Shown here: positions 1,067 to 29,366 of the stretch, one piece after another
Layout: each line of letters starts with the position of its first letter
Numbering within the stretch: the first letter of the stretch is position 1
DNA from: Nocardioidaceae bacterium
GTDB taxonomy: Bacteria > Actinomycetota > Actinomycetes > Propionibacteriales > Nocardioidaceae
Assembly (NCBI GenBank): GCA_025934895.1
Contig: JAICWH010000017.1
Span: 1-38,211, forward strand
Direction of reading: 5' to 3'
DNA length: 38,211 bases
The notes under the pieces: model-generated
Told to the model about the DNA's origin: nothing
Database searches by the model: none
Seen by the model: the letters and a program-made list of their open reading frames with translations, nothing else
Program-made: the position numbers and the translations under genes

Positions 1067-2050
1067 ATGACCAGCCTGACCTCGCTGGGGATGCCCGCTG
1101 TGCCGCCACCCACGTCCCGGCCGACGTGGAAGGCGGCCTGGGACTCGGCGTTGTACGGCGCCGAGGGGTTCTTCCGACGTGAGTCGCCCGCGGCGCACTT
1201 CCGGACCTCCGTGCACGCCTCCCCCCAATTCGCGCAGGCGCTGGTCCGGATGGCCCGCGGGGCCGGCCTGGACACCGTCGTGGACATCGGCGCCGGCCGC
1301 GGCGAGCTGCTGACCTCAATGCGCCGCCTTGACCCGGCGCTGGCCCTGCTCGGTGTCGAGGTGGCCGCCCGGCCGCCCGGCCTGGACCGCTCGATCGCCT
1401 GGACCACCGGCCTGCCGACGTCTGTCGAGGGCCTGGTGGTGGCGAACGTGTGGCTCGACAACATCCCCTGCCACGTCGTCGAGCTCGACGACGACGCGGT
1501 GCCGCGCGTCGTGCACGTCGATCCCGACACCGGCGAGGAGTCGGCCGGACAGCCGCTCGGCCATCCGTCGGTGCCCTCCTCGCTGCGCAGGTGGACCGAC
1601 CAGTGGTGGCCGCTCGAGGGGGGTGAGCCGGGGGCGCGAGCGGAGGTGGGCACCACCCGGGACGCCGCCTGGGCCGACGTCGTGGGCCGGGTGCAGCGGG
1701 GCATCGCGGTGGCGGTCGACTACGGCCACCTCCGCGAGGACCGTCCTCCGTTCGGCACGCTGGCGTCCTACCGGGGCGGCCGGCTCGTCGACGTGCTCCC
1801 CGACGGGTCGCGCGACGTCACGGCGCACGTCGCCGTCGACTCGGTGGCGGCCCGGGTCGGGGCCGTCGTACGACGGCAGCGCGAGGTCCTGCACGAGCTG
1901 GGCGTCGAGGCTGCGATGCCGGCGACCGTCCTGGCCAGCGAGGACCCGGCCGCCTACCTGGGTCGACTCTCGTCGGCAGCCGAGGCTGCCGAGCTCACCG
2001 CCGCGGGCGGACTCGGCGACTTCTGGTGGGTCGTCACGACCCGGAGCTGA
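1067..2050 (+). CDS. SAM-dependent methyltransferase, MidA/NDUFAF7 (DUF185, Methyltransf_28) family
   Basis: ORF 944-2050 trimmed to ATG 1067 (MTSLTSLGMPAV). Motifs ALYGAEGFFRRESPAAHFRTSVHASPQFAQAL, VVDIGAGRGELL, ANVWLDNIPCHVVEL, AVDYGHLREDRPPFGTLASYRGG and DVTAHVAVDSVAA match the family layout. Confidence 0.8.
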   Translation: MTSLTSLGMPAVPPPTSRPTWKAAWDSALYGAEGFFRRESPAAHFRTSVHASPQFAQALVRMARGAGLDTVVDIGAGRGELLTSMRRLDPALALLGVEVAARPPGLDRSIAWTTGLPTSVEGLVVANVWLDNIPCHVVELDDDAVPRVVHVDPDTGEESAGQPLGHPSVPSSLRRWTDQWWPLEGGEPGARAEVGTTRDAAWADVVGRVQRGIAVAVDYGHLREDRPPFGTLASYRGGRLVDVLPDGSRDVTAHVAVDSVAARVGAVVRRQREVLHELGVEAAMPATVLASEDPAAYLGRLSSAAEAAELTAAGGLGDFWWVVTTRS

Positions 2051-3435
2051 CCGGAGCTGACCGGAGTGGGCCCGCCGGACCGGTCCCGCGCCGCACGAGC
2101 CCGGCGGACGAGGGTGGCCTGCAGGTCCAGCAGAGCCCGGGCCTCCTGCGCGTCACGGTGGCGGGCGCGGACCTTGACCGGACCCGGCGGGCTGTCGACC
2201 AGCAGGTCCGCGAGCCCGAGCAGGCGTTGCAGTGGGCGCTGGTGGATGCGGAGCGACTGGACGCGCGCGTGCGGCACGATGTGCGTCCTGCGGGTCAGGA
2301 CACCGTCGCGGCCGACCAGGAGGTCCTGTCCCACGCCGAACGCGAGGTAACGCCACCGCAGCGGCGCCACCCACCGGGCCCGGTCGGGTGGCGAGCTGAG
2401 GTGGACCAACCGGGGGTCGGGTCCCCCGGCGTCGGTGAGCAGCGTGCGGGCCAGTGCGAGGACCACGGCGTGCGGCGCAACCGGCATCACCGTGGAGGCG
2501 GACGGCTTGCCGTTGTCCCCGTGCTCCATCCGGCCGGCGATGGAGACGTCCAGCCGGCTCCAGCCCAGGCGGCGCCACAGGAACGGCTCGGTGACCACGA
2601 CACCCTGCACCCGCGCCAGGTTGACCGTCTGGGCGTTCAGCTCGAACAGGCCGCGCCGCACCTGCAGCGCGGACGGTGCCCCGGCCCGGGACGAGGCGCT
2701 CACGGTGAAGTCGTAGTAGGCGGACAGCTTGCGGAACTGGGTGAGCGCGAACCCCACCACCACCGGCACCACCCCGGCGATCCCGCTGACCTGGCCGAAG
2801 ACCACGAAGACGACGCCCAGCACCAGGGCCGCCACCACGAACAGGACGGTCTCCGGCGCGAGGAGCAGGCTCACCAGCAGCATGCGCAGGTCCAGCTTCG
2901 CGATCGTCGGCTCGGCCGCTGCTGTGGGCGCAGGCACGGGCGGCGGCCCCGCACCGTCCGAGTCCTGCTCCTCCCGGACGGCGTCGCGCCGGGACAGCAG
3001 CGTCTCGCGCAGGGCCTGGGCGTGCTTGAGCGGGAGGAACGCCAGCGAGCCCTCGTGCGGGCCGCCGCCCGCGACGTCCAACCGCAGCTCCGCGAGACCG
3101 AAGAGCCGTGCGACGAAGGGCTGCACGATGTCGATGCCTTGGATCCGGTCGACCCGGATCCGGCGGGACTGCCGGGAGACGACACCGGTGTCCACCCGCA
3201 GCTCGTCGGACTCGATCCAGTACTTCGTGCGCAGCCAGGACGTGAACCCGTACGCGCCTCCGGCGACCAGGATGACCAGGAACACCCAGGCGAGCGGACC
3301 CAGCCGACCACGCAGCAGGTCGTCCCAGGTGGAGGCGAAGACCGCGACGAGCAGGATCGCACTCCGCACCAGCGGGGTGAGCGGTGAGAGCCGCCGGTAG
3401 GGGTGCCGGACCGGCGGCTCGGGTGCCGAGCTCAC
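1954..3435 (-). CDS. PH domain-containing membrane protein (YdbT/DUF304-like)
   Basis: ORF 1954-3990 trimmed to GTG at 3435 (VSSAPEPPVRHPYRRLSPLTPLVRSAILL), which overlaps the stop of the upstream PH gene as GTGA; repeated bPH modules (WIESDELRVDTGVVSRQSRRIRVDRIQGIDIVQP) and TM segments. Confidence 0.8.
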   Translation of the reverse strand: MSSAPEPPVRHPYRRLSPLTPLVRSAILLVAVFASTWDDLLRGRLGPLAWVFLVILVAGGAYGFTSWLRTKYWIESDELRVDTGVVSRQSRRIRVDRIQGIDIVQPFVARLFGLAELRLDVAGGGPHEGSLAFLPLKHAQALRETLLSRRDAVREEQDSDGAGPPPVPAPTAAAEPTIAKLDLRMLLVSLLLAPETVLFVVAALVLGVVFVVFGQVSGIAGVVPVVVGFALTQFRKLSAYYDFTVSASSRAGAPSALQVRRGLFELNAQTVNLARVQGVVVTEPFLWRRLGWSRLDVSIAGRMEHGDNGKPSASTVMPVAPHAVVLALARTLLTDAGGPDPRLVHLSSPPDRARWVAPLRWRYLAFGVGQDLLVGRDGVLTRRTHIVPHARVQSLRIHQRPLQRLLGLADLLVDSPPGPVKVRARHRDAQEARALLDLQATLVRRARAARDRSGGPTPVSSGQLRVVTTHQKSPSPPAAVSSAASAADESRPR

Positions 3436-3923: not shown

Positions 3924-3955
3924 ACCTTGAGGCTACGCGCGACCGACGCAGGGGC

Positions 3956-6808
3956 TCAGGACCTCGACCGCCTGAGCCTGGCGAGCTCATCCAGCACGTC
4001 GACGTACCGCCGTGCCTCCGTGGGGATGTCGACGCCGGGTGCAGCCGGTGCCGGGGCCGACTCGCGCTCGGACAGGAGACGCTGCACCTCCTCGACGAAC
4101 TTCTCCCGCGTCGAGATCACCAGCAGGTCGTGCGGGACGCCCACGCCGGGCACGTCCGTCACGATGGCGGGCAGGCCGAGAGCGGCATACATCATCAGCT
4201 TGAGGGGGTTCATGTAGGCGGCGACGTCGTCGGCGACGTGCGGAACGACGGCGACGTCCGCCTCGGCGAGCACGCGCAGGCTGTCGCTCTCGCTCAACGG
4301 ACCGAGGTAGGAGACGTTGGGCAGCGCCATGAGGGTCTCCAGCTCGGCACCGGCACGGGCCGCACCTCCGACGAGGACCAGCTCCGCGTCCGGGATGTGG
4401 GTGACCAGCTCGATGAGCAGCTGCCAATCCATGCGGTCGTTCATGTTGCCGGTGTAGACCATGGTGGGGCGGTGGCGCGGAGACGACGACTCGGCCGCAC
4501 TGCCGGGGCGCCGCGGACCAGGCCAGGAGCCACAGCCGGTCGGAGGCAGGTACCAGTTGGGCACGACGGTGAGGCGAGGGTCGCCAGGCTCCAGCATCCG
4601 CTCGTCGGTGAAGAATCCGAGATTGGCCGGAGAGTTGAACACCACCCGGTCGGCGCCGCGCAGCAGCACGCTGTACTGCCACGCGAACGCCTGCCGACGC
4701 TCCCGGCTGCTGGTCCAGAGGAACTGGTTGTCGACCATGTCGACGACGGTCCGGTAGGGGTTCAGCACGTGTGCGAAGTCCACCAGGCGACCGATCACCG
4801 GGAACAGCACGATGCTCGTGTTGCTCGGCAGCATGGCGTTGCGCACCAGGAACTGCTGGACGGATTCGGCGGCGGGGACGTCGGCGTCCAGCTCGACCTG
4901 CCGGTAGCTCACTCCGTCCGCGTCGACGAAGCCACCGGCCTTGCGGGCGGCCAACGAGAGGATGCTCGCCGAGTCCGACAGGTAGTCCCCGGCCAGCAGG
5001 GCATGGCGGCTCCTGTCGTCCGCGTCGAGGAACTCCAGCACCACCACGTCGGACTCAGGGTTCAGACGCTTGTAGACGCGAGCCACCTGGTCCACCCGGC
5101 GGCCGTACAGACCGGCGTCGTTCTGCTTCCACACCAGCAGCAGGACATCGCGCTCGACCCTGTTGCTCGCTTCGGGGAAGTCGTCCCTCAGCAGTCCCAG
5201 GACCTGACCTGCGCGGGGGGCGGCCTCCGCGTCCGCCAAGGCGTCCCCGAAGGACCCCGATGCGCCGGCCGGCGTGAACGGCGCAGGCAGGGTGATGGTC
5301 TCGGTCGAGGCCAGGGCGTCGCACAGCTGCTGGTCGAAGTTGCTCTCGTTGAACAGGTAGACCCCTGGCACATCGGCCAGGTCGTCCACGCTCGGACCCT
5401 CCGGCACGAGAACCGGCTTCCCCGCCGCGAGGCCGTCCGCGATCTTGGCCGAGATCTGGTACCGGGTGATGGGGGCGTCGGTGTGGCTGTCGGACGGGAA
5501 GCCGGTGAGGATGCAGTCCATCGTGGACAGCCGTTGCGGCAGCGCGTCCATGGGAACCATCCCGCCGACGACGACGCCGCTGCTCCTGAGCTCCTCCTTG
5601 AGCTCCGGAGGGGCGATGTCCCCGAGGACGTAGAACCTGATGGTGCGGTTGTGCACCCAGTTGGCCATGTTGACCGCCTTGGCGACCGCGAGCACGTCCT
5701 TGTGGGGCCGGACAGTCCCGACGAAGACGAGTCGTGCCTCGTCCCGGGGCCTCCGTGCCGCGCGTTCCCCGGCTGCGCGGTCCCCCGGTGCACGCACGTG
5801 TCGCACGATGTGCCCACCGAAGTCATCCTGGAGCGACCTGCTCGCGACGGTGCGACCAGGCACCTGCGCCGACAGTGCACGCACACGCCCCAGTCCGGGA
5901 AGACCGTAGACCTTGCGCCGGGAGCCGAGCGACATCGAGAAGTGCTCCTCGTTGTCGTCGAGGTCCAGGACCAGTCGCGCACCCGGGCCGGCGATCTGCG
6001 CTGCCAGCACGAACGTGGGAAGACGTGGTTTGCACAGCCACACGGTCCGGAAGGACAGCCCCATGTCGTGCATGAGCCGGTGGTAGTCGTCTCGCTGCTT
6101 CCACGGGATCTGGACGAGCTCGACCCCGGTGCCCGTCAAGGGTGGCCACAGCCCGGGGCCGAACTCGTCGAAGTGGTAGCAGAACAGCACCGCCGGCCCC
6201 CGTGTGCGCGCCACGTCATAGAGCACCTTGGCGCGACCCACCGGGTTGTGGGAGCCGTCCCAGCAGGTGACGGCCACGCAGGCGCGGTCCTTCGACAGCT
6301 CGGCCGCTCGCTCCAGCTGGAGCATCGGGTGCAGCCTCATCGAGCCCACGGCCAGTGTCGTCTGGTCGAGCAGCTCCAGAGCCCGACCTGTGAAGGCGAA
6401 GAGCTCGAGCTTCGCACCCGCCCGCGCTCCGTCCAGCTCGAACCTGAAGCCGGTGGCCTGGTCCATCTGGAGCGCACGTTTGAGGTCGGCACGCGCCAGC
6501 GGCCACTTCAGCAGCCTGGCGGGTCTGCCGTCCACGAGGAGCACCGGAGTCACGTGGTCACGCGGTGAGAACATCCAGCCTCGGACCCGGCCGCCGTGGG
6601 AGGTCTCGATGCGTCCCCAGACCCCGGCCGGCGAGGGTCGCACGTCGCTGCGCCAGGCGGGTCGCCGGGGGAGTGCACCTCGGTGCGGACGGGGCCCGGC
6701 CTGCTCCACAGCGAGCCGCCGTTGTGCAGGCTCCTCCGCCACGAGGTCCCGCGCGCGCGACGCGGCCGCACGTGCCAACCGCCGGAGCAGCTGCTTGGTG
6801 CGGGGCAA
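3956..6808 (-). CDS. Large bimodular GT4/GT1-type glycosyltransferase with N-terminal beta-rich domain
   Basis: 950 aa, TTG start. N-terminal GRIETSHGGRVRGWMFSP...GFRFEL motif. First GT module around PITRYQISAKIADGLAAGKPVLVPEGPSVDDLADVPGVYLF; second around PTMVYTGNMNDRMDWQLLIELV...MNPLKLMMYAALGLPAIVTDVPGV. Confidence 0.8.
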   Translation of the reverse strand: MPRTKQLLRRLARAAASRARDLVAEEPAQRRLAVEQAGPRPHRGALPRRPAWRSDVRPSPAGVWGRIETSHGGRVRGWMFSPRDHVTPVLLVDGRPARLLKWPLARADLKRALQMDQATGFRFELDGARAGAKLELFAFTGRALELLDQTTLAVGSMRLHPMLQLERAAELSKDRACVAVTCWDGSHNPVGRAKVLYDVARTRGPAVLFCYHFDEFGPGLWPPLTGTGVELVQIPWKQRDDYHRLMHDMGLSFRTVWLCKPRLPTFVLAAQIAGPGARLVLDLDDNEEHFSMSLGSRRKVYGLPGLGRVRALSAQVPGRTVASRSLQDDFGGHIVRHVRAPGDRAAGERAARRPRDEARLVFVGTVRPHKDVLAVAKAVNMANWVHNRTIRFYVLGDIAPPELKEELRSSGVVVGGMVPMDALPQRLSTMDCILTGFPSDSHTDAPITRYQISAKIADGLAAGKPVLVPEGPSVDDLADVPGVYLFNESNFDQQLCDALASTETITLPAPFTPAGASGSFGDALADAEAAPRAGQVLGLLRDDFPEASNRVERDVLLLVWKQNDAGLYGRRVDQVARVYKRLNPESDVVVLEFLDADDRSRHALLAGDYLSDSASILSLAARKAGGFVDADGVSYRQVELDADVPAAESVQQFLVRNAMLPSNTSIVLFPVIGRLVDFAHVLNPYRTVVDMVDNQFLWTSSRERRQAFAWQYSVLLRGADRVVFNSPANLGFFTDERMLEPGDPRLTVVPNWYLPPTGCGSWPGPRRPGSAAESSSPRHRPTMVYTGNMNDRMDWQLLIELVTHIPDAELVLVGGAARAGAELETLMALPNVSYLGPLSESDSLRVLAEADVAVVPHVADDVAAYMNPLKLMMYAALGLPAIVTDVPGVGVPHDLLVISTREKFVEEVQRLLSERESAPAPAAPGVDIPTEARRYVDVLDELARLRRSRS

Positions 6809-6833
6809 TGGAGATCGTCCCTTTCGTTGGGTT

Positions 6834-6907
6834 CCTGTCGAGGGCCGGAGGGCGGGAAGTTGAACAAGCTCCGCTTCTCGAGGCCGGCCAGGAGCGACCT
6901 CGACAGG
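6834..6907 (-). other. Candidate structured 5' leader: perfect 10-bp inverted repeat cctgtcgagg / cctcgacagg
   Basis: Arms at 6834-6843 and 6898-6907, 54-nt spacer, directly upstream of the 3956-6808 GT; possible minus-strand -10 TAGGAT (plus ATCCTA) at 6945-6950. Confidence 0.35.
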
Positions 6908-7006
6908 TGACCTCCTGGACCGTGACGGCGGGGCACCTGAAGGAATCCTAAGAGGAACGTCCCTGCGCAGTCACTGCCGACACGGCCCCCAAGCCCGGTG
7001 CCGACG

Positions 7007-8629
7007 CTAGGGAGCCGGTGGATGTCTACTCGGCCGGGGGTTCCCGCGGCACAGTGAGGTCGGGTGCAGGTGCGACGCCGGGCGGACGAGCACGGTCACC
7101 GGCGCTCCCGTTGCGGCGATCGCGCTGGGCTTCGACGCCCGGTAGGTCCGAGCCGTCGAACGGCCGGTGCCCATCACCACGAAGACCCGGACTCCGCCGA
7201 CGAAGACGACGGACGAACGAGTGCTGATCCGTACCCGGCGTTCCCGGGAAAGCGCGACGCAGTGTGGGTCCTGGGCGGCGTGTGCGAGCGTGGCGTTCGG
7301 CGGCAGCGTCAGGCGGGCCGCCGCTTCGGCCGCGAGCCCGGGCGACCGGGGCGGCTGAGGAATCCGCGCCGAGGTCGCGGCCTCACGCAGCCATCCGACG
7401 GTGATGGCGGAGTATCCGGTGATGCCGGCGAAGGGCGGGTAACCGTCCGGGGCGTCGTCGAGGGCCGGTGAATGGGCGACGGCCAGGACCAGGGCGGGTG
7501 GTGCCAGGTCGTTGCTACGCACCTCGATGGCCGACACGTTGCCGGGCACCCCCGCCAGCAGCAGGGCGAACGCGGGCACAGCGGCCAGGGGCCAGCGGCG
7601 AACCACCCGGTCGAACCCGAGAGCGATCACCGGCATGACGAGCGCCACGCCGACGTACGCGTACCGGCTGCGGGTGGAGAAGCTCACGCCCAGCTCCTCG
7701 GCCCGGCTCAGACCCGTGAGCGCGTAGAAGGTCACCGCGCCCACGACCAGAGCCAACGGGACGGCCAGACGTCGCCGCAGGCTCTCCAGGGAGCGGCGCT
7801 GCTGCCACGCCAGCATCCCGATGCCGAGCGCGGTCACGGCCAGCAGGCCGCCCGTGACCAGGGGTGACTGCCCCAGTCGACCCATCGAGTAGCCGAGGCC
7901 GGTGGCGGTGAAACGGGCGACCAGACCCAGGTCGCTGCCGAACCGCTGGGCGCCGGTGGCGAAGGTGGCCCACCACGCCAGGTAGACCACTCCTGGAGGG
8001 ACCGAGCACCACGCCGCAGCGCGCCAGCCCCGACCAGCTAGCACGGCGAGCCCGACCACCCCGGCCATGATCAGCCCGATGCCGGAGAACATGAGGGAGC
8101 CGATCCCGCAGGCCAGGCCGGCCACCCGCCGCCGGGGTGACGGCGCGGGATGGTCGACCAACAGCAGATGGGCCAGACCGAGGGCCAGGGCTCCGGAGAA
8201 GCTGAGCTCGAATGCCCACACGACGGCCTCGGCGCCGCTGCCGTAGAGGAGGAACACGCCTGCGGCGGCAGTGGCCAGCCACGGCCCCACCCCGAGGCGC
8301 CGCCGCATCACGGCTCGCAACAGCACCGCCACCACCAGGTGCAGGCCGATGGACAGCGCCTGGTACGGCTGGTAGCTCTGTGCCCCGACAGTGTTCCAGA
8401 GCAGCCGGTAGACGATCACCGGGATCGTCGACCAGTGCTCGTTGTGGGGATCGAGCAACCCCTGCACGCTGTCCCCGTCCCGAGTCGAGAAGAACACCCA
8501 CTCGTCCTGGAAGAACCACTGGGACCGGCCCTTGACCGAGTAGAGCGCCGCGGCCAGCGGGAGCAGGGCGAGGAAAACCAGGCCGGCGGCGGACGGTGCC
8601 GCCGCACGCGACCGGCCGGGCAGCATCAT
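7007..8629 (-). CDS. Polytopic membrane protein, GT-C-like glycosyltransferase (function uncertain)
   Basis: Start at MLPGRSRAAAPSAAGLVFLALLPLAAALYS, 8 bp after the upstream GT stop; many hydrophobic segments; early FFQDEWVFF motif typical of membrane mannosyl/glucosyltransferase-like proteins. Confidence 0.65.
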   Translation of the reverse strand: MMLPGRSRAAAPSAAGLVFLALLPLAAALYSVKGRSQWFFQDEWVFFSTRDGDSVQGLLDPHNEHWSTIPVIVYRLLWNTVGAQSYQPYQALSIGLHLVVAVLLRAVMRRRLGVGPWLATAAAGVFLLYGSGAEAVVWAFELSFSGALALGLAHLLLVDHPAPSPRRRVAGLACGIGSLMFSGIGLIMAGVVGLAVLAGRGWRAAAWCSVPPGVVYLAWWATFATGAQRFGSDLGLVARFTATGLGYSMGRLGQSPLVTGGLLAVTALGIGMLAWQQRRSLESLRRRLAVPLALVVGAVTFYALTGLSRAEELGVSFSTRSRYAYVGVALVMPVIALGFDRVVRRWPLAAVPAFALLLAGVPGNVSAIEVRSNDLAPPALVLAVAHSPALDDAPDGYPPFAGITGYSAITVGWLREAATSARIPQPPRSPGLAAEAAARLTLPPNATLAHAAQDPHCVALSRERRVRISTRSSVVFVGGVRVFVVMGTGRSTARTYRASKPSAIAATGAPVTVLVRPASHLHPTSLCRGNPRPSRHPPAP

Positions 8630-8636
8630 GAGGCGG

Positions 8637-11600
8637 TCATCGACCAGAACGTGCTGAGGTACCAGGGTCGGCGCTCTGCAGGTGGTCGTGCCGGATCTCC
8701 AGGGCGATGTCCAGCAACCGCACGGCCCGCCTGTCGAACGAGTGCTCCCGATGCACTCGACCGGCGACCCGGCGTCGCTCCTCCGCACTGCCGAAGGTGT
8801 GGTCCATCGGCCCTCTCCTGACCAGCCGCGCCAGAGAGGCTGCGTCGGTCGCCACCTGCACCGAGCTGCCGAACAGACCGGTCAGTCCCGCCACGTCGTC
8901 GGAGATCACCCGGGCGCCGCTGGCGACGGCGTCGAAGAGCCGGTTGGAGAGGAACCCCTCGCGGCGCATGTCCTCCCAGTGGTCGTTGAGCACGACACCC
9001 GCGGAGGCGTACAACGCGCCCAGCTCACGGTTGGGCACGAACCGTCCCTTGATCAGGTGTCGCGGGATCAGCCCCTCCCAGTCCGAGCCGTAGACGGACA
9101 GCGGCAGCCCGGAGGTCACGGAGTGCCTCACGATCTCCCGGTAGTGACGTCGCGACCCGCCGACGAAGACGATCGGCTCGCCCGCGTCCGTCGTGCCTCG
9201 GTCGGGGTGGAACAGCTGCGGGTCGGTGGCCTGCAGCAGCGGGTCGATGCGGATCGACCAGCGGCGCGTCATCTTGTCCGCCCACGACGGGCTGGCGGCC
9301 AGCACCCGGTCGTAGGAGGCGGCCTCCCGGCGGGTCAGCAGCTCGGGGTGGGAGATCACCCAGGCCAGGCTGACCTGTCCGTAGGCCGGCTGGAAGGGCT
9401 CCAGGCCCCGGAGCACGAGCACCACGTCGTCGTGGTGCCCCGACTGCCGACCGAAGTCCTCGCGATGGTCGAGGACCACCTGCTGCCCGATGGCGTGCAG
9501 CGCCGTCGCCAGGCTGCGCGCGAAGTGGGTGTCACCCCAGAACTCGCGCCGGTCCCCTGCGGGGGACGCGACCTTGAGGGCCCACCGCAGCCGTGGTCGG
9601 GCCTCTCGGACACTCACCCGTGGGCGGGACAGCACCGGCCGCGGAGGACACAGCCGACGGTCCGCACCGTCGGGCCCGTCGGTGACGTGTCCCTGCACCT
9701 CGAACCCGCGACTGGCCCAGAGCCGGGAGTCGTCGCGCGGCGCCCACGCGGCCCACCGGTCGAGGAACAGCTGCCGGTTCAGCACCGGCACGGCGGAGTC
9801 GGTGGAGCGACGTGGCCGCGGCAGGGCGGCCCGCGACTCCGGTGCGACGACGAAGCGACCCCCGCGCACCTGCTGCAGCCTCAGGCACAGGTCGACGTCC
9901 TCGAGGCCCCCGCGGAACAGCGGGTCGAAGCCCCGCATCCCCACCAGGTCGTCGTACCGGAGCGCCAGGGCGTCCCGGCTGAGCGCTCCGACCGGTACGC
10001 CGTCGAGGCCCGCCGCGTCCGCGACCGGGAAGCCCTGGAGGAAGTCGTAGGGCAGCCCGCCACAGGCCGGGAAGGCGAAGCCGGCCGAGTAGATGGAGCC
10101 CGAGGGGCCGGTCACCAGGGACTGGGCGGCGAGCACGTCTGGTCGCTCCAGCGCCCGGACCAGCGGGTCCAGCCACCCCCTCTCCACCCTGAGGCTGGGG
10201 CGCAGCAGGACCACGACCGAGCCACGGACCTCGGGGAGGGCCAGGTTGGTGCTCAGCGCCGACCCTGTCTGCGACGGCAGGTGGAGCACCCGGACCCCGG
10301 TGAAGCGGTGCGCTGCTGAGCCGAGGACCTGCGAGGTGAGCCGGTCGCAGCCGTCGTCGACGACGACGCTCTCGAGCGACCAGCCGTCCGGTGCCCCCGC
10401 AGCCTCCACCCGGCTCAGGCAGGCGAGGGTCTGGCGCCAGCCGGTGGCTGCGGTGACCACCACCGTCACGGTCGTCGGCTGCTGCTGCCGACGGGCCAGG
10501 GAGTCCCAGTCGACGGCCACGCGGTTGAAGGCCACGTCGGCCCAGGACCTCACCCGGCTGTGGTCGAGGGGTGGCTCGTCGACCGTGTCCACCGAGGTCC
10601 CCGGCGCCCCGGGGTCGGGCTGGCCGGCTCGCGTGGGCCCGACTGCGGGCACCGAGCGGACCGGGAACCGGGCAGCCAGGCGCAGGGCGAAGTCTGCCTC
10701 CCAGGCCGCGGGCAGGAGCTCGTCGAAGCCACCGGTGTCCTCGAAGGCCGTGCGGCTGACCAGCAGCCTCTCCAGATCGACGGTGATCGGCGACACAGGC
10801 GGCCCGGTGGCGGGCACCGAGGACCCGAACAGGTCGGGCTTGCCTGCCCGGACCAGCCGTAGTGAGTCGCAGGCCGCCTCTGCTCCGTCCGCGTCGCAGA
10901 CCCCCTGGAGGGTCCGTAGCCGTCCTGATGCCCAGACGTCACCGGGACGCGCCCAGGTGAGGTAGTCGCCGGTGGCCCGCTGGGCTGCCAGGTTCAGTCC
11001 GCCCGATGCACGGTCGCCGGCCCGCCGTACGACGCTCAGCGGGGCTCCGGGGAACAGCCGCCGGAGGTCGTGCTCGAGCTCACCGGCGCTCTGGCCGGCC
11101 AGGACGACGACGTCTCGGGCGGGCAGGTCCTGGGCGAGCACCGAGCGCAGGGTCGCCTCGAGGGCAGCGAGGTCGTGGCCGGACTCGACGACGACGCTGA
11201 CCCGTGGCTCATCGGGCGTGGGCCCGGCCTGCCGGGCGGCAGGGCTCTGGGGAGGGATCCTGGTCCAGGCGCGAGGGGCCGCACGGCGCCGTCGGAGCCA
11301 CTCGTCATGACGAGCCGCCACCCAGTCGACGAGCCCACGCGGCTCACCTGGGTCGGGGCGGTACCACGCGTTCGGGGAGAGCCCGTCGCGAGCGCCGATC
11401 TCGAGGTAGTGGCCGAGCGGACCCCAGCGATGGGTGCGAGCCGACGGATGGTGCTCGTCGTACCACGCGAGGTCGAAGAGCGGATGCGTAGGGACGTCGA
11501 ACAGTCGGCCCCTGAGGTAGACCTCGAGGGGATTGTCGCCCTCGGCCAGGGCAGGACAGGCTGCCACGGCATGCTCGACGGAGAACAGCGGATGCGGCTG

Positions 11601-11921: not shown

Positions 11922-12028
11922 CGGCTCCGACTGCGGAGCGTTGCATGAATCGAACCATGACATCTGAGAAACAGTAAAGTTTCGCCTCACTCGCCCGGCG
12001 CCCCGCTCAGGGCCCTCGTTCATGTCTG

Positions 12029-15000
12029 CTACCGGGAGAAGGTGGATCCCAGCACGTCCTGCAGCAGTCGGTCGGTCACCGACCCGTCGTCGTACGGCGC
12101 GTACGTCGCCCGGAGCTGCTCACGGGCCGAGGCCCACGTGTCGTCCTCCTCGAGGGCGCCCAGCAGCTCGTCGGTGCTGCGGACGACGGGGCCGGCGGCC
12201 ACCGACTCGAAGTCCAGGTAGAGCCCCCGGACCCGGTCCCGGTAGCCCTCCAGGTCCGGGGTCAGGAAGAACATCGGCTTGTCCGTGACGGCGAAGTCGA
12301 ACATCGCCGCCGAGTAGTCGGTGACCAGCACGTCGGCGGCGAGATAGAGCCTGGTGATGTCGGGGTGGGCCGTCACGTCGACGACCCGCTCGCGGCCCTG
12401 CACCCGCGGCCGGTGCGCGGTGTTGGGGTGCCCGCGCACGAGCACCGTGACGTCCGGCCGGGCTGCGGTGACGGCCTCGTGGTCGAGGTGCAGAACCTTC
12501 TCCCAGGTGCCGCCGCGGCGGGCGTCGTCGCGCCAGGTCGGGGCGTACAGCAGCACCGTCTGGTCCGCACGCACGCCGAGCTGCTCCCGGACCTCCGCCC
12601 GCAGCCGGCCAGCGTCCGGTCCGAGGAGTACGTCGCTGCTCGGCCGGCCGACCTCGAGCACCCGACCGGCGTACCCGAACGCCCGCCGGAAGATCTCGGT
12701 GGCATAAGGGCTCGGGGAGACCAGGACGTCCCAGCTGCGGGTCTCGGAGCCGAGGAGGCGCAGGTAGTGCTCGGTGGACATCCGCTGGTGCGGGATGTCG
12801 GTGCCGATCCGTTTCAGCGGCGTCCCGTGCCAGGTCTGCAGGTAGACCTGGTCGGGACCCTTGCGGAAGAACGAGGGCAACGTGTTGTTGGTGACCAGCA
12901 AGCGGGCCGACCCCATCGCGTCGTACCACTCCGGGGTGCCCCGCACCACTGCCCGGGTGCCCTCGACGTGGGCCACGCTCAGGTCCTCGACGCTCCAGAC
13001 CAGGTCGAGGTCGGTGCCGGTCGTGAGAAGCCGGTCGCACACCGCGCGAGGAGCCTCACCTACGCCGGCGCCGCCGAAGCACTCGAAGACCACCCGCTGC
13101 TCAGGGCCTCGGGCCAGCGCCCGGGCATAGACGCCGGACCGCAGCTGCTGCTGGCCGTAGCGACTCGCGGTCACCGGGTCCGCACGTCGGCGGCGTCGCA
13201 GCAGCAGCCGGCGGTCCGGGGCGACCTCGACCGACCATCCCTCCACCAGCGGCGGAGGGGTCGCCTGGTGGTAGAGGAGACCGGCCAGCACCCGGACCTC
13301 CTCCTGACCAGGAGCGGACTCGGCGACCAGCGTGTAGAGGTTCGCGGGCAGCACGGTCCGCGCCCGCCCCCACGGCGTGTGCCAGAGCGGCACCTGGACC
13401 CGGAAGGTGCCGTCCCGGACCGTCACCGACCCCGCGCCGGACTCCGCTCGTGGGCCCCGCAGCAGCATCCGGCCGTCCCGGACCCGATGCGTCCGCCCGG
13501 TGACCGTGATCCAACCGCCAGTAGCGACGACGTCGTCGACCAGCAGGCAGGGCTGGTCCGGGACGGCCGTCAGCTGGCCGTCCCGGCTGACCAGCAGGCA
13601 CACCTGGTCGTGGCACACCGCAGCGGGCTCGAGGTCGCGGACCACCGCCAGGGTGCGGCGGTCCGGTGTCGGCACGGCGACCCGGACCCGGCCCGAGATC
13701 GGGTTCCCGGCCGGGGTGCGGGCCCCCAGCCGGATCGTCCAGCCGTCCTGGGTCCCCGTGGGGACGATGGTCGTGGGCACTGCGTCGCCACCCACGCCGA
13801 CCTGGCTGACCGCGGCCAGGCCGGGCGCGCGCACGTCGAGCTGGAAAGCATCATCATCCGCGACCACGCCGGTCACCGCGGCGTAGCCCCGGTGCACCTC
13901 CACCAGCAGGCCGCGGCGGTCCGACCAGCTCGTCGTCACCAGTGCGTCGCCCACCTCCACCGCTCTCACGATGCCGGCGCTGCCGTGTTCGCGCCTGGAC
14001 TCGAGGCACGCCTCGGCGTGCATCTGCCCGAACGCCGCGTCGACGCGCAGCTCCCAGCGCGCGAAGCGTTCCGCGTCGGTGGCGGCGACCAGAGCCTCGA
14101 GGTCCAGCTCGGCGACCACCGTGGACCTCGAGTGGTCCTCATGGGCCCGACGGGCGGCCAGGTTGCCGGCCGGGTCGGCGTCGACCCGGGTCGCGACATC
14201 CGGGTACGACGTGCCGGGGGGTCCGACGAGCCGGACCGAGGTCGTCACGTCGTGCCGGCCGGGGTCGACGTAGGACAGCGCGGCCAGGAGGCGGACCGCG
14301 AGCAGGCCGTGGGTCGACCAGTCCAGCGACTCCAGCCGGGTGGTGAGCCGCAGGTCGACCGTCCGGATCCGCAGCACGGGGTCCGGGATCGCCGGTCCTC
14401 CGTGCTCGAGGGACGGGATGCGGGCGACCAGGTGACCGGCGCGGGCGGCGACCGGGAAGTTGGACGCCTCGAAGCCCTCGTCGCGCACCAGCTGCCGCAG
14501 GGCGTCGCGATGCCCATGACGCCCGAGCCACACCGCGAGGCGGCTCCGCAGCTCGACCTCGTCGTCCAGGTCCTCGGGAGCCTGCTCGGCGATCGAGACG
14601 AGGTTGTCCTGGAGCACCTCCCAGTAGTCGTCTCCCGCGTCCGCAGCCACCCGGAGGTATCCGACGAAGTCCTCGCGCAGGGTCTTCACGTACCAGCTGC
14701 GGAGCACCGCCTGGGAGGCCCGCGCGTGCAGGAAGCCGGCGATCTCTCGTTGGGCGGCGACCCGGTCCAGGAGGTCCGCCATCTCGGCCTTCTGCTGGCT
14801 GATCGAGCTCCGGTCGTCGCGCTTGCGCCACCGGTAGACGACAGAGGGCAGGACGTCGAAGGCGCGAGCCTCGAGGTAGGCGCGGGTGATGGGCACCTGG
14901 TCCTCGTAGCGGGTGCCCACGGGGAACCGCAGGCCGACGCGGTCCACGAACTCGCGCCGGAACACCTTGGTGCAGGCCATCACGTTCGTCAGCATCTCCG

Positions 15001-15586
15001 GGACGTCGTCGATCCTGACTGCGAGCCGGCGCCGTGCGTGCGCCCGCCGGGCCCAGGGCCGCAGCCGCTCGACCCCACCCTCGTCCCGGACCAGGGCTCC
15101 CACGACGAAGTCGGAGCCCGACGTGCGCAGGGCGGCCACCATCCGCCGGTAGGCGTCGGGAGGCACGGTGTCGTCGGAGTCGGCGAAGGTGACGAGGCGT
15201 CCAGTGCTGCGCACCAGACCGGCATTGCGCGCTGCGCCCAGACCCGCGTTCTCCTGCCGGACGACGACCACGCGCGGGTCCCGCTCGGCGTAGCCGCGGG
15301 CGATGTCGGCGCTGCGGTCGGTCGACCCGTCGTCGACCAGCACGACCTCGAGGTGCTGGTAGGTCTGGGCGAGCAACGAGTCCAGGCACTCGGCCAGGTA
15401 GTCCTCCACCTGGTAGACGGGCACCACGACACTCAGGAGCGGCTGCTCGGCCAGTGGCTCGGCCAGTGGATCGGCCAGTGGATCGGCCAGCGGCTCGGCT
15501 GCGGCCGGCTGACGGGGCCGGGCAGAGGCGCCGCGGGAGGCGATCCGTCTGAGCCGATGGCGGACGCGGTCGGCGGCACTGCCCAT
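12029..15586 (-). CDS. Bifunctional GT2 glycosyltransferase / CDP-glycerol glycerophosphotransferase (TagF-like)
   Basis: ATG 15586 (MGSAADRVRHRLRRIASRG). GT2 LLSVVVPVYQVEDYLAECLDSLLAQTYQHLEVVLVDDGSTD with RLVTFADSDDTVPPDAYRRM; C-terminal VYLQTWHGTPLKRIGTDIP, VLLYAPTWRDD, DVLVTDYSAAMFDFAVTDKPMFFLTPDLE. Confidence 0.9.
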   Translation of the reverse strand: MGSAADRVRHRLRRIASRGASARPRQPAAAEPLADPLADPLAEPLAEQPLLSVVVPVYQVEDYLAECLDSLLAQTYQHLEVVLVDDGSTDRSADIARGYAERDPRVVVVRQENAGLGAARNAGLVRSTGRLVTFADSDDTVPPDAYRRMVAALRTSGSDFVVGALVRDEGGVERLRPWARRAHARRRLAVRIDDVPEMLTNVMACTKVFRREFVDRVGLRFPVGTRYEDQVPITRAYLEARAFDVLPSVVYRWRKRDDRSSISQQKAEMADLLDRVAAQREIAGFLHARASQAVLRSWYVKTLREDFVGYLRVAADAGDDYWEVLQDNLVSIAEQAPEDLDDEVELRSRLAVWLGRHGHRDALRQLVRDEGFEASNFPVAARAGHLVARIPSLEHGGPAIPDPVLRIRTVDLRLTTRLESLDWSTHGLLAVRLLAALSYVDPGRHDVTTSVRLVGPPGTSYPDVATRVDADPAGNLAARRAHEDHSRSTVVAELDLEALVAATDAERFARWELRVDAAFGQMHAEACLESRREHGSAGIVRAVEVGDALVTTSWSDRRGLLVEVHRGYAAVTGVVADDDAFQLDVRAPGLAAVSQVGVGGDAVPTTIVPTGTQDGWTIRLGARTPAGNPISGRVRVAVPTPDRRTLAVVRDLEPAAVCHDQVCLLVSRDGQLTAVPDQPCLLVDDVVATGGWITVTGRTHRVRDGRMLLRGPRAESGAGSVTVRDGTFRVQVPLWHTPWGRARTVLPANLYTLVAESAPGQEEVRVLAGLLYHQATPPPLVEGWSVEVAPDRRLLLRRRRRADPVTASRYGQQQLRSGVYARALARGPEQRVVFECFGGAGVGEAPRAVCDRLLTTGTDLDLVWSVEDLSVAHVEGTRAVVRGTPEWYDAMGSARLLVTNNTLPSFFRKGPDQVYLQTWHGTPLKRIGTDIPHQRMSTEHYLRLLGSETRSWDVLVSPSPYATEIFRRAFGYAGRVLEVGRPSSDVLLGPDAGRLRAEVREQLGVRADQTVLLYAPTWRDDARRGGTWEKVLHLDHEAVTAARPDVTVLVRGHPNTAHRPRVQGRERVVDVTAHPDITRLYLAADVLVTDYSAAMFDFAVTDKPMFFLTPDLEGYRDRVRGLYLDFESVAAGPVVRSTDELLGALEEDDTWASAREQLRATYAPYDDGSVTDRLLQDVLGSTFSR
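15446..15493. repeat. In-frame 12-bp tandem repeat (4 copies, consensus ctcggccagtgg) coding (E/D)PLA repeats
   Basis: ctcggccagtgg / ctcggccagtgg / atcggccagtgg / atcggccagcgg; encodes AEPLADPLADPLAEPLAEQP just before the GT2 domain. Confidence 0.95.
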
Positions 15587-15710
15587 GCGCCGTGAACCTA
15601 CCGGTGCTGTCCGGACCGGACCGAACATCGGCGAAAGAGTGGCGAGCCGCGCCCAAACCGTCCCCAGAGGGCAGATCCCGGATCAACCGGACCCAGTCTC
15701 CGATCTGTCC

Positions 15711-15716
15711 TACTCT
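15711..15716 (+). promoter_or_regulatory. Candidate -10 (TACTCT) placed for a leaderless GH16 transcript
   Basis: TACTCT-N6-ATG (ATG 15723); no clear Shine-Dalgarno between them. Confidence 0.4.
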
Positions 15717-15722
15717 CGAGAA

Positions 15723-17156
15723 ATGCCCCGCACCCGCGCCGCCCCGGTCCTCGCGCTGACGACGCTGGTCGTGGCAGGGATGTGCGCGATGGCCACCTCG
15801 TCCTCCCAGGCGGCCGTCCGGACGAGGGCCTCCTTCGACCTGTCGTCGCAGCAGCCGGTCGCGCGCGAGTGGTTCACCGCATCCGGCCGGGTGTCCACGC
15901 GCTTCCGACGGCCGGTGCAGGTCAGGGTGCTCGCCGGACCCAGCTGGCGCGTTGTCCGGCGAGCGACCACCTCGACCAGCGGGGTCTACCGGGTGACCCG
16001 GCTCGCGACCACGGTGCCCCGCAGGTACTCCGTGGTGGTGCCCGCGGTGCGCCGGTCCGGCCGGGTCTTCAGCCGGGTCGTCACGGGAACCCGAACCGTG
16101 TCGCCGGTCCAACAGTCCAGCTCGCTGGACGTGCTTCCCCCCGTCGCGCAGCGCGGCTCGGCTGCCGCGGCCTCCTCCTTGGCGAAGAACTCGGTGGTGG
16201 CACGCTTCACCCCGGCGCGTCCGGGGCGGCCGGTCACGTTCCGCGAGCGCAGTCAGGACGGGCGCTGGGTCGTCATCGGAGGCTCCACGCGCCAGGGAGC
16301 CGACGGCACCGCCTACTTCTTCGGGACTGCCGGGACCCGCGTCTTCGAGGCGACGACGGCCTCGCGCTTCGGCGCGCCCGCCGTGACCACCCGCGCCACC
16401 AGCAACGCCTGGGTCCCCACGTTCGGCGACGACTTCTCCGGCACGACCCTCGACCGGGCCAAGTGGTCCTACCGCACCGGCCGGGCCCCCTCACGCACGC
16501 ACTCGACCAACGACCCGCGGTCGGTGACGGTGGGCTCGGGGACACTGCGGCTGCAGGTGCGGCTCGACCCGGCGGCGCCCAACACCACCGCCGCCAACAC
16601 CAGGTACCTCAACGGCCAGGTCGGCACCGACGGCGGCTACGACTTCACCTACGGGGTCGCCTCGGCCCGGGTCAGGTTCTCACCCGCCCGTGGTCAGCAC
16701 GGCTCGTTCTGGCTGCAGTCCCCGACCTACGGCCGCTTCGCCGGCAACCCCGGGAGCAGCGGCACGGAGATCGACGTCGCCGAGTTCTTCGGCAGGGGTT
16801 TTCCCAAGGGGGGTCTGGCCACCTACGTCTACTACACGGACCGGACCGGTGACACCGTGAAGATCGGCGACGTGTGGCCGCGAGCCGCCGGGCTGGTCCC
16901 CCGCGCAGACACCTGGTGGAGCAGCTACCACGTGTTCACCGTGAAGTGGGGGCCGAGGGGCTACACCTTCTATGTCGACGGACGGGTGCTCTACGCGACC
17001 GATCGGGGCGTGTCGCAGACCCGGCAGTACCTCATCCTCAGCCTGCTCACCTCCGACTGGGAGCTGCCCGACCTCCGACGAGCCAGCCTGCCGACGTCGA
17101 TGTCGGTGGACTGGGCGAGGGTCTGGCGAAGCGCGGTAGGGTCCTCACCGCGGTAG
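15723..17156 (+). CDS. Secreted glycoside hydrolase family 16 protein
   Basis: Signal peptide MPRTRAAPVLALTTLVVAGMCAMATSSSQAA; GH16 domain FGDDFSGTTLDRAKWSYRTG... with catalytic motif GTEIDVAEFFG and WGPRGYTFYVDGRVLYATD. Confidence 0.9.
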   Translation: MPRTRAAPVLALTTLVVAGMCAMATSSSQAAVRTRASFDLSSQQPVAREWFTASGRVSTRFRRPVQVRVLAGPSWRVVRRATTSTSGVYRVTRLATTVPRRYSVVVPAVRRSGRVFSRVVTGTRTVSPVQQSSSLDVLPPVAQRGSAAAASSLAKNSVVARFTPARPGRPVTFRERSQDGRWVVIGGSTRQGADGTAYFFGTAGTRVFEATTASRFGAPAVTTRATSNAWVPTFGDDFSGTTLDRAKWSYRTGRAPSRTHSTNDPRSVTVGSGTLRLQVRLDPAAPNTTAANTRYLNGQVGTDGGYDFTYGVASARVRFSPARGQHGSFWLQSPTYGRFAGNPGSSGTEIDVAEFFGRGFPKGGLATYVYYTDRTGDTVKIGDVWPRAAGLVPRADTWWSSYHVFTVKWGPRGYTFYVDGRVLYATDRGVSQTRQYLILSLLTSDWELPDLRRASLPTSMSVDWARVWRSAVGSSPR

Positions 17157-17166
17157 TGTCTTCGCG

Positions 17167-19149
17167 ATGACCGCTGCGACCGGCCGGTTGGCCGACCTGC
17201 TCGACCGGGTCGACCGGCTCCTCGTCGTGCGTGGTCCCTCCGTCACCCAGCAGGAGGTCCTCGGCGTCTGCGTCCGTCCGGGGCTCCAGGTGGGGCTGAG
17301 CGACGTGCCCGGCCGGCCCCCGCCGGACGCACCGGACGGCGTGCTGCTCGTGGTGCGCGACCGGATGGAGCTGCGGCGGGTGGTCGGAGCGTGCCAGAGC
17401 CTGCCGGGCAGCCCGCGACTGGGCTGCGTCCTGCTGGACAGCGACCGGCCGCCCCTCACCGCCGGCCGCCCCGGTTGGCCAGCTGTGCTGTCCGTGGTGG
17501 CCGAATCCTCCCCCGTGTGCTTCACCTTCGTCGAGCTCGCGGCACCCCTGCGGATGGGACACCTCACCGCGGACCTGGCCCGACGGTCGACACCGCGGCA
17601 CCTGATGTCGCCGGGCTGGCCGGTGCTGGCCCTCGACCGCGGCTCACCGCAGATGTGGACCCCCGGCGACCCGTTGTCGGTCGTCGGCCGGCCAGAGGAG
17701 ATCCACGACCTCTCCGGCGACTACCCCGCGGACGTGGTGGTGACCGACGGCTCGTGCGGCGCCCGGGACCAGGCGCAGGGCCGGTCCGCACGGGAGCACC
17801 ATGTCCTGGGTTCCCTGCCCCGGGCCCTGCACCTGGCGGCCCCGATGACCTGGTCGGACTACCACGAGCAGGGCGCCGAGCGCAGCGACCGGCAGCTCGC
17901 TGCTGAGCAGGGGCTGGCCCTCGGCGGCGTCGACTCGCAGCTGGTCAACCCCCAGGGCTTCCGACGCCGAGCCGCCGGCCCGGTGCATGCGCTGACCGCC
18001 GTACCGGAGGCCCCGCACCTGTGCCGGGTGGAGTGCGATGACGGCCCGGTCCTGGTGGACACCCGACATGGGCCGGGCGAACGGGACCTGACCCGACTGC
18101 GGACACTGCGGGGGGTGCACGTGGACTGGCAGGGGGCGACCGGGCCGCGCGACTACGCCCGGCTGGTGGTCGCGTTGGCGATGGCCGGCGTGCCGCTGAC
18201 CTGCGACCCGGCCCCGACCTGGGCCCGGGCGCAGCTGCATCCGGACCTGCTGGCGGCAACCGCCGGGAGGACCGACCTCGACGACCCGATGGCGCGCGAG
18301 GTCCGCAGCATCCTCGCCCGGCGCGCGGCGCTGACCCGGCACAGCGCGGATGCCTGGCGCCGTCGGGTCGCCGAGGCGACCGGCGCGGCGGGGCCGGCGG
18401 CTCCCCGGGTCAGCGTCCTGCTGCCCACCCGTCGCCCCGACCTCCTCGGGTTCGCGCTCCGCCAGGTCGCCCGGCAACGCGGCGTGGAGCTCGAGCTGGT
18501 GCTCGCCACCCACGGTCACGAACCCGACCAGCGCCTCCTCGCCGAGGTCCGGGAGAGCGCGTCGCTGCAGGTCACCGCGGTGACCGCGCCGGCCGACGAG
18601 CCGTTCGGGTCGCTGCTGAACCTGGCGGCCGGTGCTGCCACCGGCGACCTGCTGCTGAAGATGGACGACGACGACTGGTACGGCCCGCACTTCGTGGCCG
18701 ACCTGCTGCTGGCCCGCGGATACAGTGGCGCCGACGTCACCGGCACCCCGCCCGAGTTCACCTACGTCGAGGCGCTGGACCTGACGGTGCGTCGCAAGGA
18801 CGCGACCGAGTCGTTCCGCCCGGTGGTGGCCGGCGGGACGATGCTGGTCACGCGGGAGTGCCTCACCGCGGTAGGAGGGTTCCGCCGGATGCGCCGCTAC
18901 GTCGACGCGGGTCTCCTGCAGGGCGTCCTCGCCGCCGGCGGGTCGGTCTACCGGACCCACGGCCACAGCTACCTCCTGCGCCGCGGAGGCTCCGGGCACA
19001 CCTGGGACCCGGGGCTCGGCTACTTCGTCAGCCGCTCACGGACGGCGGAGCAGTGGCGGGGCTTCCGGCCCAGTGTGCTGCTCGAGGCCGACGACGCCGA
19101 CCGGCCGGCGGCGAGCGCCCAGCCCACGCGCGAGAGGTCCGTCCGGTGA
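17167..19149 (+). CDS. GT2 family glycosyltransferase with ~400-aa uncharacterised N-terminal region
   Basis: C-terminal PRVSVLLPTRRPDLLGFALRQVARQRGVELELVLATHG...GDLLLKMDDDDWYGPHFVADLL; 10 bp after the GH16 stop. Confidence 0.85.
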   Translation: MTAATGRLADLLDRVDRLLVVRGPSVTQQEVLGVCVRPGLQVGLSDVPGRPPPDAPDGVLLVVRDRMELRRVVGACQSLPGSPRLGCVLLDSDRPPLTAGRPGWPAVLSVVAESSPVCFTFVELAAPLRMGHLTADLARRSTPRHLMSPGWPVLALDRGSPQMWTPGDPLSVVGRPEEIHDLSGDYPADVVVTDGSCGARDQAQGRSAREHHVLGSLPRALHLAAPMTWSDYHEQGAERSDRQLAAEQGLALGGVDSQLVNPQGFRRRAAGPVHALTAVPEAPHLCRVECDDGPVLVDTRHGPGERDLTRLRTLRGVHVDWQGATGPRDYARLVVALAMAGVPLTCDPAPTWARAQLHPDLLAATAGRTDLDDPMAREVRSILARRAALTRHSADAWRRRVAEATGAAGPAAPRVSVLLPTRRPDLLGFALRQVARQRGVELELVLATHGHEPDQRLLAEVRESASLQVTAVTAPADEPFGSLLNLAAGAATGDLLLKMDDDDWYGPHFVADLLLARGYSGADVTGTPPEFTYVEALDLTVRRKDATESFRPVVAGGTMLVTRECLTAVGGFRRMRRYVDAGLLQGVLAAGGSVYRTHGHSYLLRRGGSGHTWDPGLGYFVSRSRTAEQWRGFRPSVLLEADDADRPAASAQPTRERSVR

Positions 19150-20744
19150 CTGCCGGCGACGGTCGGCCGCTGCCGGGTCAGCCCGCGGTCCCGGGCAACG
19201 ACTGGCCCTCCCTGCGGCCTCCCGCGCTCGGCGGCTGGACCCCCACGCGGACGGTCAGCGTGGTCGTCCCGGCCCACGACGCATCGCGGACCCTGCCCTA
19301 CGCGCTCGCAGCACTGGCCCAGCAGACCTATCCCGCCGAGCTGACCGAGGTGGTCGTCGTCGACGACGGCAGCGACCCACCGCTCACGCTGCCCGCCGAG
19401 CGTCCCGAGCACACCAGGATGGTCACGACCTCGGCGTCCTGGGGACGTGCGCACGCGTGTCACGTGGGCGCCTGCGCGGCGCAGGGCGAGGTGCTGCACT
19501 GGCTCGACGCGGACCTGCTCGCGCACCCCGACGAGCTCGAGGCGCAGATGCGGTGGCACCATCTCGTGGACTACGCCGTCGTGCTGGGCACCAAGACCTT
19601 CGTGGATGTCGCCGACGGCCTGCCCGACCTCGAGGAGTTGGCCCGGATGCTCCGCGAGGGCCGGGCCACCGACCTGTTCCCGGGTCGCTGGACCTCACCC
19701 CACACCTGGGTCGAGGAGCAGATCGAACACTCCCAGGGCCTCACTGCGAACCCCACCATGAGCTACCTGGTGCACGTCGGCGCGAGCGCGTCCGTGGGTC
19801 GCGACCTCTACCTGGACACCGGCGGGATGGACCCGGAGCTCAAGCTGGGCGAGGACGTGGAGCTGGGCTACCGGCTCGGCCAGCAGGGTGCGCTGTTCGT
19901 CCCGGACCGCGAGGCCCTCTCCTGGCACCTCGGCCGGTCGACGCTGATGGCCGACCAGGACCGGGTCAACGCCTATAACCGCCCCTTCGTCACCGACCGG
20001 GTGCCCGACCTGCGGCACTGGCGCACGAAGGGCCGCTCCTACACGGTTCCCTGGGTCGAGGTGGTGGTCGACGCGACCGAGCAGACCTACACCGACGTCC
20101 GGCACTCCGTCATCGCGGTCCTCACCGGTGCCGTCACCGATGTCCGGGTCGTGGTGCTCGGGCCGTGGTCGCGGCTCACCGACGGACGACGGTCCCCGCT
20201 GGCCGACCCCGACCGGGACCTGCGGATGGTCCGCGCCGAGCTCGAGGGCGACCCGCGGGTCCGGTTCGTCGAGGAGCTGCCCCGCACCGCCTTTCCCGCG
20301 ACGTTCCGGCTGCTGCTGCCGACCGGGTGGGCACCGGGCCCGGACACCGTGCGCAGGCTGGCCCGGGAGATGACCCGCCGGGACCGGGGGCTGGTCTCGA
20401 TGGTCCTCCCGGACGGCCGGACAGCCCGGCTGGAGCGCACCTCCGCCTTCAACCGGGCTGCCCGGGTTGCGGGCGCTCGGCCGGACCGTGACATGGAGGC
20501 CGGGCTCGATGACCTGGTCGACCAGGTGTCGCGGACATGGTGGTTCGACGGCCCCGAGGAGGGGTTCACCCATGTCTGCGCGGTCCCGGCCACCGAGCCC
20601 GGGACCCGCGCTGCCGGCGGAGGGCGACCGGGACGGACGCAGACCGGGTCGGCGCGACGCGACGACCTGGCGGGCGACGGCACACAACATCACCTACCGA
20701 GCGCCCGCGACCTGCTCAGCCGGGCGATCCGCCGCCGGAGATGA
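19146..20744 (+). CDS. GT2 family glycosyltransferase
   Basis: GTG 19146 overlaps the previous stop (GTGA). [66 protein letters not shown]. Confidence 0.88.
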
Positions 20745-21907
20745 CCCCGCTCACCCGGCTCACCGTCGGGGTCGGGGCGGGCACCGCGGGGAGCTCGACC
20801 CACGACCTGGTCCTCGACATCGCCCCGCACCATCCCTCCACCCACGGGATGCTGCGGCTGCGCCTGACGCTCGACGGGGAGCGCATCGTGGCCTGCGAGC
20901 CGGTCGTGGGCTACCTGCACCGGGGCGTCGAGAAGCTGTTCGAGGTTCGTGACTACCGGCAGATCGTCGTGCTGGCCAACCGCCACGACTGGCTCTCGGC
21001 GTTCTCCTCCGAGCTCGGCGTCGTCCTCGCCGTCGAGCGGATGCTGGGCCTGGAGGTGCCGCGTCGGGCGACCTGGGCCCGGACCCTCCTCGCCGAGCTG
21101 AACCGGGTGCTCAGCCACCTGATGTTCCTGGGCGCCTTCCCGGTGCAGCCGGCCGCCGGCCGACCCGCGGTGCGCACATCCCCGGAGCGCGAGCAGGTCC
21201 AGGCGGTGATGGAGGAGCTCACCGGCGGTCGGATGCACTACATGTTCAACCGGGTGGGCGGCCTCAAGGAGGACCTTCCCGCTGGCTGGCTGCTCCGGGT
21301 CGCGGACACCCTCACGTCGGTGCGGCAGGCACTGCCGCGGATCGAGGACGGCCTCCTGGGCAGCCCAAGCTTCGAGGACCGCACGCGCGGCATCGGGGTG
21401 CTGCGAACGACGCTCGTCGACGCGTACGGCGTCAGCGGCCCCGTGGCCCGGGCGTCCGGTGCCGACCTCGACCTCCGGCGTGACGAGCCCTACCTCGCCT
21501 ACGGCGACCTGCTCCGCGACGGGGTCCTCGAGGTGCCGGTGCGCCACGAGGGTGACTGCTACGCCAGGGTCCGGATGCTGCTGGACCAGGTGGCGGTCTC
21601 CCTGGCGCTGTCCGAGGCGTGTGTGGAGCGGCTGGCGAGGCTGGACCGCGGTCCCGTGAACGTCCGGCTCCCGAAGGTGCTGCGACCACCCGAAGGGGCG
21701 ACGTACGCCTGGACGGAGAACCCGCTCGGCATCAACGGCTACTACCTGGTCTCCCGCGGCGCGGGGACGCCATGGCGGATGAAGCTCCGCACGGCGTCCT
21801 TCAACAACGTGGCCGTGCTGCCCGAGCTGCTCGAGGGCTGCCGGCTGGCCGACCTGGTCACCATCTTGGGCTCGCTGTTCTTCGTGGTGGGCGACATCGA
21901 CAAATGA
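20741..21907 (+). CDS. NADH-quinone oxidoreductase subunit D (NuoD/49 kDa)-like protein, orphan (NuoD2-type)
   Basis: ATG 20741 overlaps the upstream GT2 stop (ATGA). [134 protein letters not shown]-terminal [13 protein letters not shown]. Confidence 0.92.
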
Positions 21908-29350: not shown

Positions 29351-29366
29351 AGGGCCCAGATTAGGT

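Follow-up and report, generated by a model that had tools for sequence, protein, structure and literature searches.

The window, by which we mean the whole stretch of 38,211 nucleotides from a Nocardioidaceae bacterium, encodes a methyltransferase of the MidA family and a protein similar to the NuoD subunit of respiratory complex I. The human relative of MidA, NDUFAF7, methylates a complex I subunit, and the mitochondrial equivalent of Arg61 in the NuoD-like protein lies beside cluster N2. The original prediction was that the two proteins may be a functional enzyme–substrate pair, whose genes were split by an insertion. Do these genes belong together, and to which complex? The genes and their surroundings are as follows.

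2–1228, minus strand: DUF2520/Rossmann-like gene, which adjoins panC and flanks midA in most relatives (gene order)
1067–2050, plus strand: midA, MidA/NDUFAF7-type SAM-dependent methyltransferase (COG1565, PF02636), 327 aa (Pfam, single copy, model)
3956–20744, no strand assigned: glycosyltransferase/CDP-glycerol glycerophosphotransferase island between midA and nuoD2 (Pfam, gene order)
20741–21907, plus strand: nuoD2, encoding the D (49-kDa) subunit of an additional complex I that lacks NuoEFG, 388 aa (PF00346, tree, model)

We put the probability at about 70% that midA and nuoD2 are, taking the explanation as a whole, a conserved assembly pair of nuo2, the second complex I of actinobacteria. 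Both genes are on the plus strand, as first described, and their identity was borne out by Pfam profiles and structural models. In a Pfam profile search, the protein encoded at 1067–2050 matched PF02636 with E = 5e-16 (59.3 bits against a cut-off of 23.3), and this is the only MidA gene copy in the genome. Its AlphaFold2 model (pLDDT 93.5) has the MidA-type fold; the closest PDB matches are the COG1565 methyltransferases 4g67/4f3n and MidA 5ztz/5zu0, and also 1zkd. The sequence is divergent, with 22–25% identity to 4g67/4f3n. Two conserved motifs of the family fall in the gene as follows.

1289–1303, plus strand: glycines G75, G77 and G79 of SAM-binding motif I (DIGAGRGEL), almost invariant across 26 MidA sequences
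1448–1450, plus strand: codon 128, GTG (Val), at the Glu of the motif ANEWLD; 64 of 67 MidA loci have Glu at this position, and the window gene is entered twice among the exceptions

The conserved NE-x-LD motif reads NVWLD in the window, where Val replaces Glu128 and LD is retained. This is a difference of one residue and not a profile failure. By sequence and modelled fold the protein is a member of the family, and its activity is in doubt.

The protein encoded at 20741–21907 matched PF00346 with E = 1e-59. The start codon of nuoD2 shares an ATGA overlap with the glycosyltransferase gene upstream. The NuoD2 model aligns with NuoD/NDUFS2 chains at a TM of about 0.85; its HRG loop (residues 58–66) is modelled at low confidence, so we make no structural claim for the loop. 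The genome has two NuoD genes: that of the window, and the canonical gene, which is on contig C166. Three sites of the window protein are listed here.

20831–20848, plus strand: HPSTHG quinone-site loop, intact (alignments)
20921–20923, plus strand: Arg61 (HRGVEK), equivalent of NDUFS2 Arg85 and predicted methylation site (alignments)
20990–20992, plus strand: Trp84 in place of the quinone-site Tyr of canonical NuoD (RHDWLS versus RMDYLS; alignment)

Thus NuoD2 carries both the HPxxHG and the HRGxEK motifs of NuoD. Its HRGVEK aligns with HRGTEK of mitochondrial 49-kDa subunits, and HRG is also found in plastid subunits; the arginine expected at the NDUFS2 Arg85 position is indeed there. The quinone-site Tyr of R-x-D-Y is absent, and Trp is found instead; the other NuoD2, and the majority of the 11-subunit NuoD read, also have Trp. 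In the NuoD tree, NuoD2 sits among the 11-subunit forms, apart from canonical NuoD.

Many NuoD, NdhH and NDUFS2 proteins have an arginine at this site, and its presence alone means little. At the level of sequence, the informative contrast is between Thr in canonical actinobacterial NuoD and Arg in NuoD2. The five canonical loci read have HTG, with Thr at the NDUFS2-Arg85 site, whereas all NuoD2 and 11-subunit NuoD read have HRG, or HRA in one family (f20). NuoB varies reciprocally: HTG NuoD pairs with Arg-type NuoB (GRVSQKM) in 5/5 loci, HRG NuoD pairs with Thr-type NuoB in every 11-subunit operon read, and there were no exceptions among loci with both subunits read. Every separately encoded NuoB2 has Thr, including that of this genome on contig C103 (GTVTDKM), which matches the HRG of the window NuoD2. 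This reciprocity argues that the partner of NuoD2 is NuoB2 and not canonical NuoB. It is the intersubunit Arg/Thr switch already described for Thermus versus Yarrowia, in a paper whose authors state that they could not tell the contribution of methylation from that of the residue itself (PMC8042128). The equivalent arginine is dimethylated in Paracoccus and unmodified in E. coli, where it is Arg249 (PMC3750175). Among the control genomes, neither that of E. coli nor that of Thermus gave a PF02636 match. The literature searched gave no methylation data on any actinobacterial NuoD2, no link of MidA to it and no mention of Arg/Thr reciprocity in nuo2.

The original prediction called the NuoD-like protein an orphan. 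This stands for the gene neighbourhood only, as matched NuoB2, NuoC2 and NuoI2 are encoded elsewhere in the genome. It turned out that most relatives with NuoD2 and MidA encode a second NuoH, which sits in an operon A-B-C-H-I-J-K-L-M-N without D, E, F and G (L129–L136), often with korAB nearby. The second NuoH, and then the operon without nuoD, ruled out a free-standing orphan. NuoD2 is the displaced D subunit of nuo2. In a scan of named genomes (8 loci), NuoD2 lay within the fetched DNA in 6. The cluster cysteines of NuoI and NuoB are retained in nuo2. A Streptomyces nuo2 with nuoD2 encoded apart has already been published (PMC3765725).

We located the MidA and NuoD loci of relatives by tblastn. 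Co-occurrence, to which the original prediction looked for confirmation, was strong: of 99 relatives, 62 have NuoD2, and 53 of these also have MidA, against 1 of the 37 that lack NuoD2. A class-wide sample gave 26 of 27 with NuoD2 and 0 of 33 without it. The counts were compared by Fisher tests, whose P values near 1e-16 are overstated, the genomes being related by shared ancestry. In the lone relative with MidA and without NuoD2 (G048), the MidA gene is fragmented. Genera g2, g10 and g23 each hold genomes with both genes and genomes with neither, and closely related genomes within families f2 and f9 are likewise split; the two genes have been lost together within these genera and between these close relatives. 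Several genomes of family f2 have kept NuoD2 and NuoB2 and lost MidA. One clade (L105–L112, L123) has 11-subunit operons with HRG NuoD, and MidA was not detected in its sampled genomes. HRG-type NuoD therefore exists without detectable MidA, and the arginine can be retained without MidA.

Two loci show split genes. The MidA of G048 lies in two fragments (G048:C1:29633-30322) in a genome with no NuoD2, which fits decay after loss of the partner. In G004 (G004:C1:3569785-3570913), the NuoD2 match is split into two that overlap, with a TGA in frame, although nuo2 membrane genes are present; this is a broken gene or a sequence error.

Gene order also linked the two genes. They share a contig in 50 genomes, with a median gap of 2.0 kb and a gap of at most 7 kb in 46 of the 50; the shortest gaps are 104–174 bp (G061, G091, G031, G015), and adjacency occurs in both relative orientations. 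The usual context is panC, DUF2520, midA, bPH2 genes in some cases, nuoD2 and folate genes, in conserved order. The widest gaps, 11–19 kb, belong to four genomes, all of the window's genus (G000, G001, G002, G005), and among the relatives measured an island-wide separation of more than 7 kb was found only in some members of this genus. The proposal that insertion of the island split the genes fits these data, as the wide separation occurs only where the glycan island sits. In deep actinobacteria, the 11-subunit nuo operon contains nuoD, and midA follows its nuoN (L085–L090, L093, L095). In L091, L092 and L094 midA is farther from this operon, and in some deep lineages MidA is located elsewhere in the genome. 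Loci L098–L104 (families f19 and f20) have NuoD with MidA nearby, and a full nuo operon was not seen in the DNA read.

The region 3956–28672 is a dense glycan island with several GT2/GT4 proteins, a GH16 domain, a weak sulfotransferase match and three proteins with CDP-glycerol glycerophosphotransferase domains. Judged by its genes, this content suggests a teichoic-acid-like polymer locus. The open reading frames at 7007–8788 (593 aa) and 28733–29485 (250 aa) had no Pfam match.

We also assessed what is left of nuo2 in this genome. Contig C103 carries contiguous nuoB2-nuoC2-nuoI2, that is, the matched B, C and I of an 11-subunit complex I, followed by a DUF520 gene; korA/korB are on the same contig. 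No nuoA2 or nuoJ2-K2 was found beside these genes. One NuoH and one L/M/N set across contigs C166 and C10 were found in the genome, and no second membrane arm (A, H, J-N). The cluster cysteines of NuoB2 and NuoI2 are retained. The NuoB2 quinone-site segment RLGVIPFAPGPRQADLM of membrane-type operons is eroded here, and NuoI2 has no N-terminal helix, a condition seen in 10 of 11 remnant loci. In G008 (L194), a second NuoH was not found, yet this helix is retained. An assembly gap is an unlikely cause of the missing membrane genes, given the contiguity up to DUF520, the recurrence of B-C-I in L172, L173 and L174, and the truncated NuoI2. Remnant NuoB-C-I form one clade. Remnant NuoD2 clustered in a first NuoD tree. 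A more careful tree, from which the longest branches were left out, grouped them again at moderate support (90/98), with one genome of uncertain state inside the group. The gene trees place the remnant forms of the window's family and, where included, of a second family, f2, in one lineage, a grouping to which long branches may contribute. The korA/korB genes for 2-oxoacid:ferredoxin oxidoreductase lie beside or near nuoB2-C2-I2 in L171, L176, L179 and L193–L195.

Apparently, the spare complex has shrunk here to a gene set that probably makes a soluble remnant. A placement outside canonical complex I was thus correct insofar as NuoD2 is part of another complex I, one without the diaphorase module and here probably a remnant without the membrane arm; it was not correct if a free-standing protein is meant. 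Somewhat short of an even chance, taken jointly, we give to a soluble, ferredoxin-linked NuoB2-C2-D2-I2 module that is coupled to KorAB, whose NuoD2 is methylated beside cluster N2 by the dedicated MidA, and whose electron acceptor is other than the membrane quinone. Such an acceptor is suggested by Trp at the quinone-site Tyr, the eroded NuoB2 quinone segment and the missing second NuoH. A soluble NuoBCDI was not described in the literature searched.

As a whole, the original prediction is partly supported: the pairing and the insertion both withstood the comparison of co-occurrence and gene order that it had proposed. Other readings have to be weighed. It is possible, at roughly one chance in four, that the pair is ancestral and the window MidA is inactive or decaying, while NuoD2 and NuoB2C2I2 function without methylation, like E. 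coli NuoCD. Val128 would agree with this, and so would the family f2 genomes without MidA and the unmodified Arg249 of E. coli (PMC3750175). However, the window MidA has an intact frame, a conserved motif I and a confidently modelled fold, and codon 128 differs by a single base in a 247-contig assembly, which may be a sequence error.

We consider it improbable that the substrate of MidA lies elsewhere and that its link to nuoD2 is shared inheritance of a block beside panC and folate genes. The conserved order of the block and the divergence of the window MidA could be explained in this way, but not so readily the co-loss within genera, the adjacency in both orientations and, in deep lineages, the independent linkage of midA to 11-subunit nuo operons. 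Least probable is the swapping of NuoD2 into the canonical 14-subunit complex I as an alternative D subunit: although this genome has no second membrane arm found for NuoD2 to join, the Arg of canonical NuoB (Thr in NuoB2) and the HRG of NuoD2 would place two arginines at one site, and the matched NuoB2C2I2 is present.

In the assembly-pair reading, which we prefer, midA and nuoD2 would serve a nuo2 of the gene set A-B-C-D-H-I-J-K-L-M-N, without EFG. MidA would most likely act as a protein-arginine methyltransferase and convert Arg61 of NuoD2 to symmetric dimethylarginine, ahead of the docking of NuoD2 with NuoB2. Ancestrally, midA may have adjoined the nuo2 operon or nuoD2; in Actinomycetes, both genes would have relocated together to the panC-DUF2520/folate locus, and in part of the window's genus the glycan island would later have split them. 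In this genome, with the nuo2 membrane arm gone, the surviving NuoB2, NuoC2, NuoD2 and NuoI2 probably form a soluble iron-sulphur module, to which KorAB would feed ferredoxin electrons.

The nearest known systems are NDUFAF7/MidA with NDUFS2 in mitochondria and MidA with Nqo4 in Paracoccus denitrificans. They share with the window the methyltransferase fold family and the arginine in HRGxEK, the predicted target here. In contrast to them, the partner here is NuoD2 of a diaphorase-less complex I, canonical NuoD having Thr, and the enzyme, whose methylation of NuoD2 is a prediction, is shorter and divergent. In the Streptomyces nuo2, too, there is an additional set of nuoA, B and H-N, and nuoD2 lies at a separate location (PMC3765725), whereas A, H and J-N are lost in this genome. 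The 11-subunit complex I without the NADH module has the same gene set in L085–L112; this genome retains only B, C, D and I of it, without the NuoI N-terminal helix.

The arginine beside cluster N2 is dimethylated in some complexes I, carries no modification in E. coli and gives way to Thr in Thermus. Many actinobacteria hold both solutions in one cell: HTG NuoD with Arg-type NuoB, and HRG NuoD2 with Thr-type NuoB2 and its own methyltransferase. Such bacteria could separate the question of methylation from the main respiratory enzyme. Forms without the membrane arm would reveal which parts of complex I are able to survive as a soluble electron-transfer unit.
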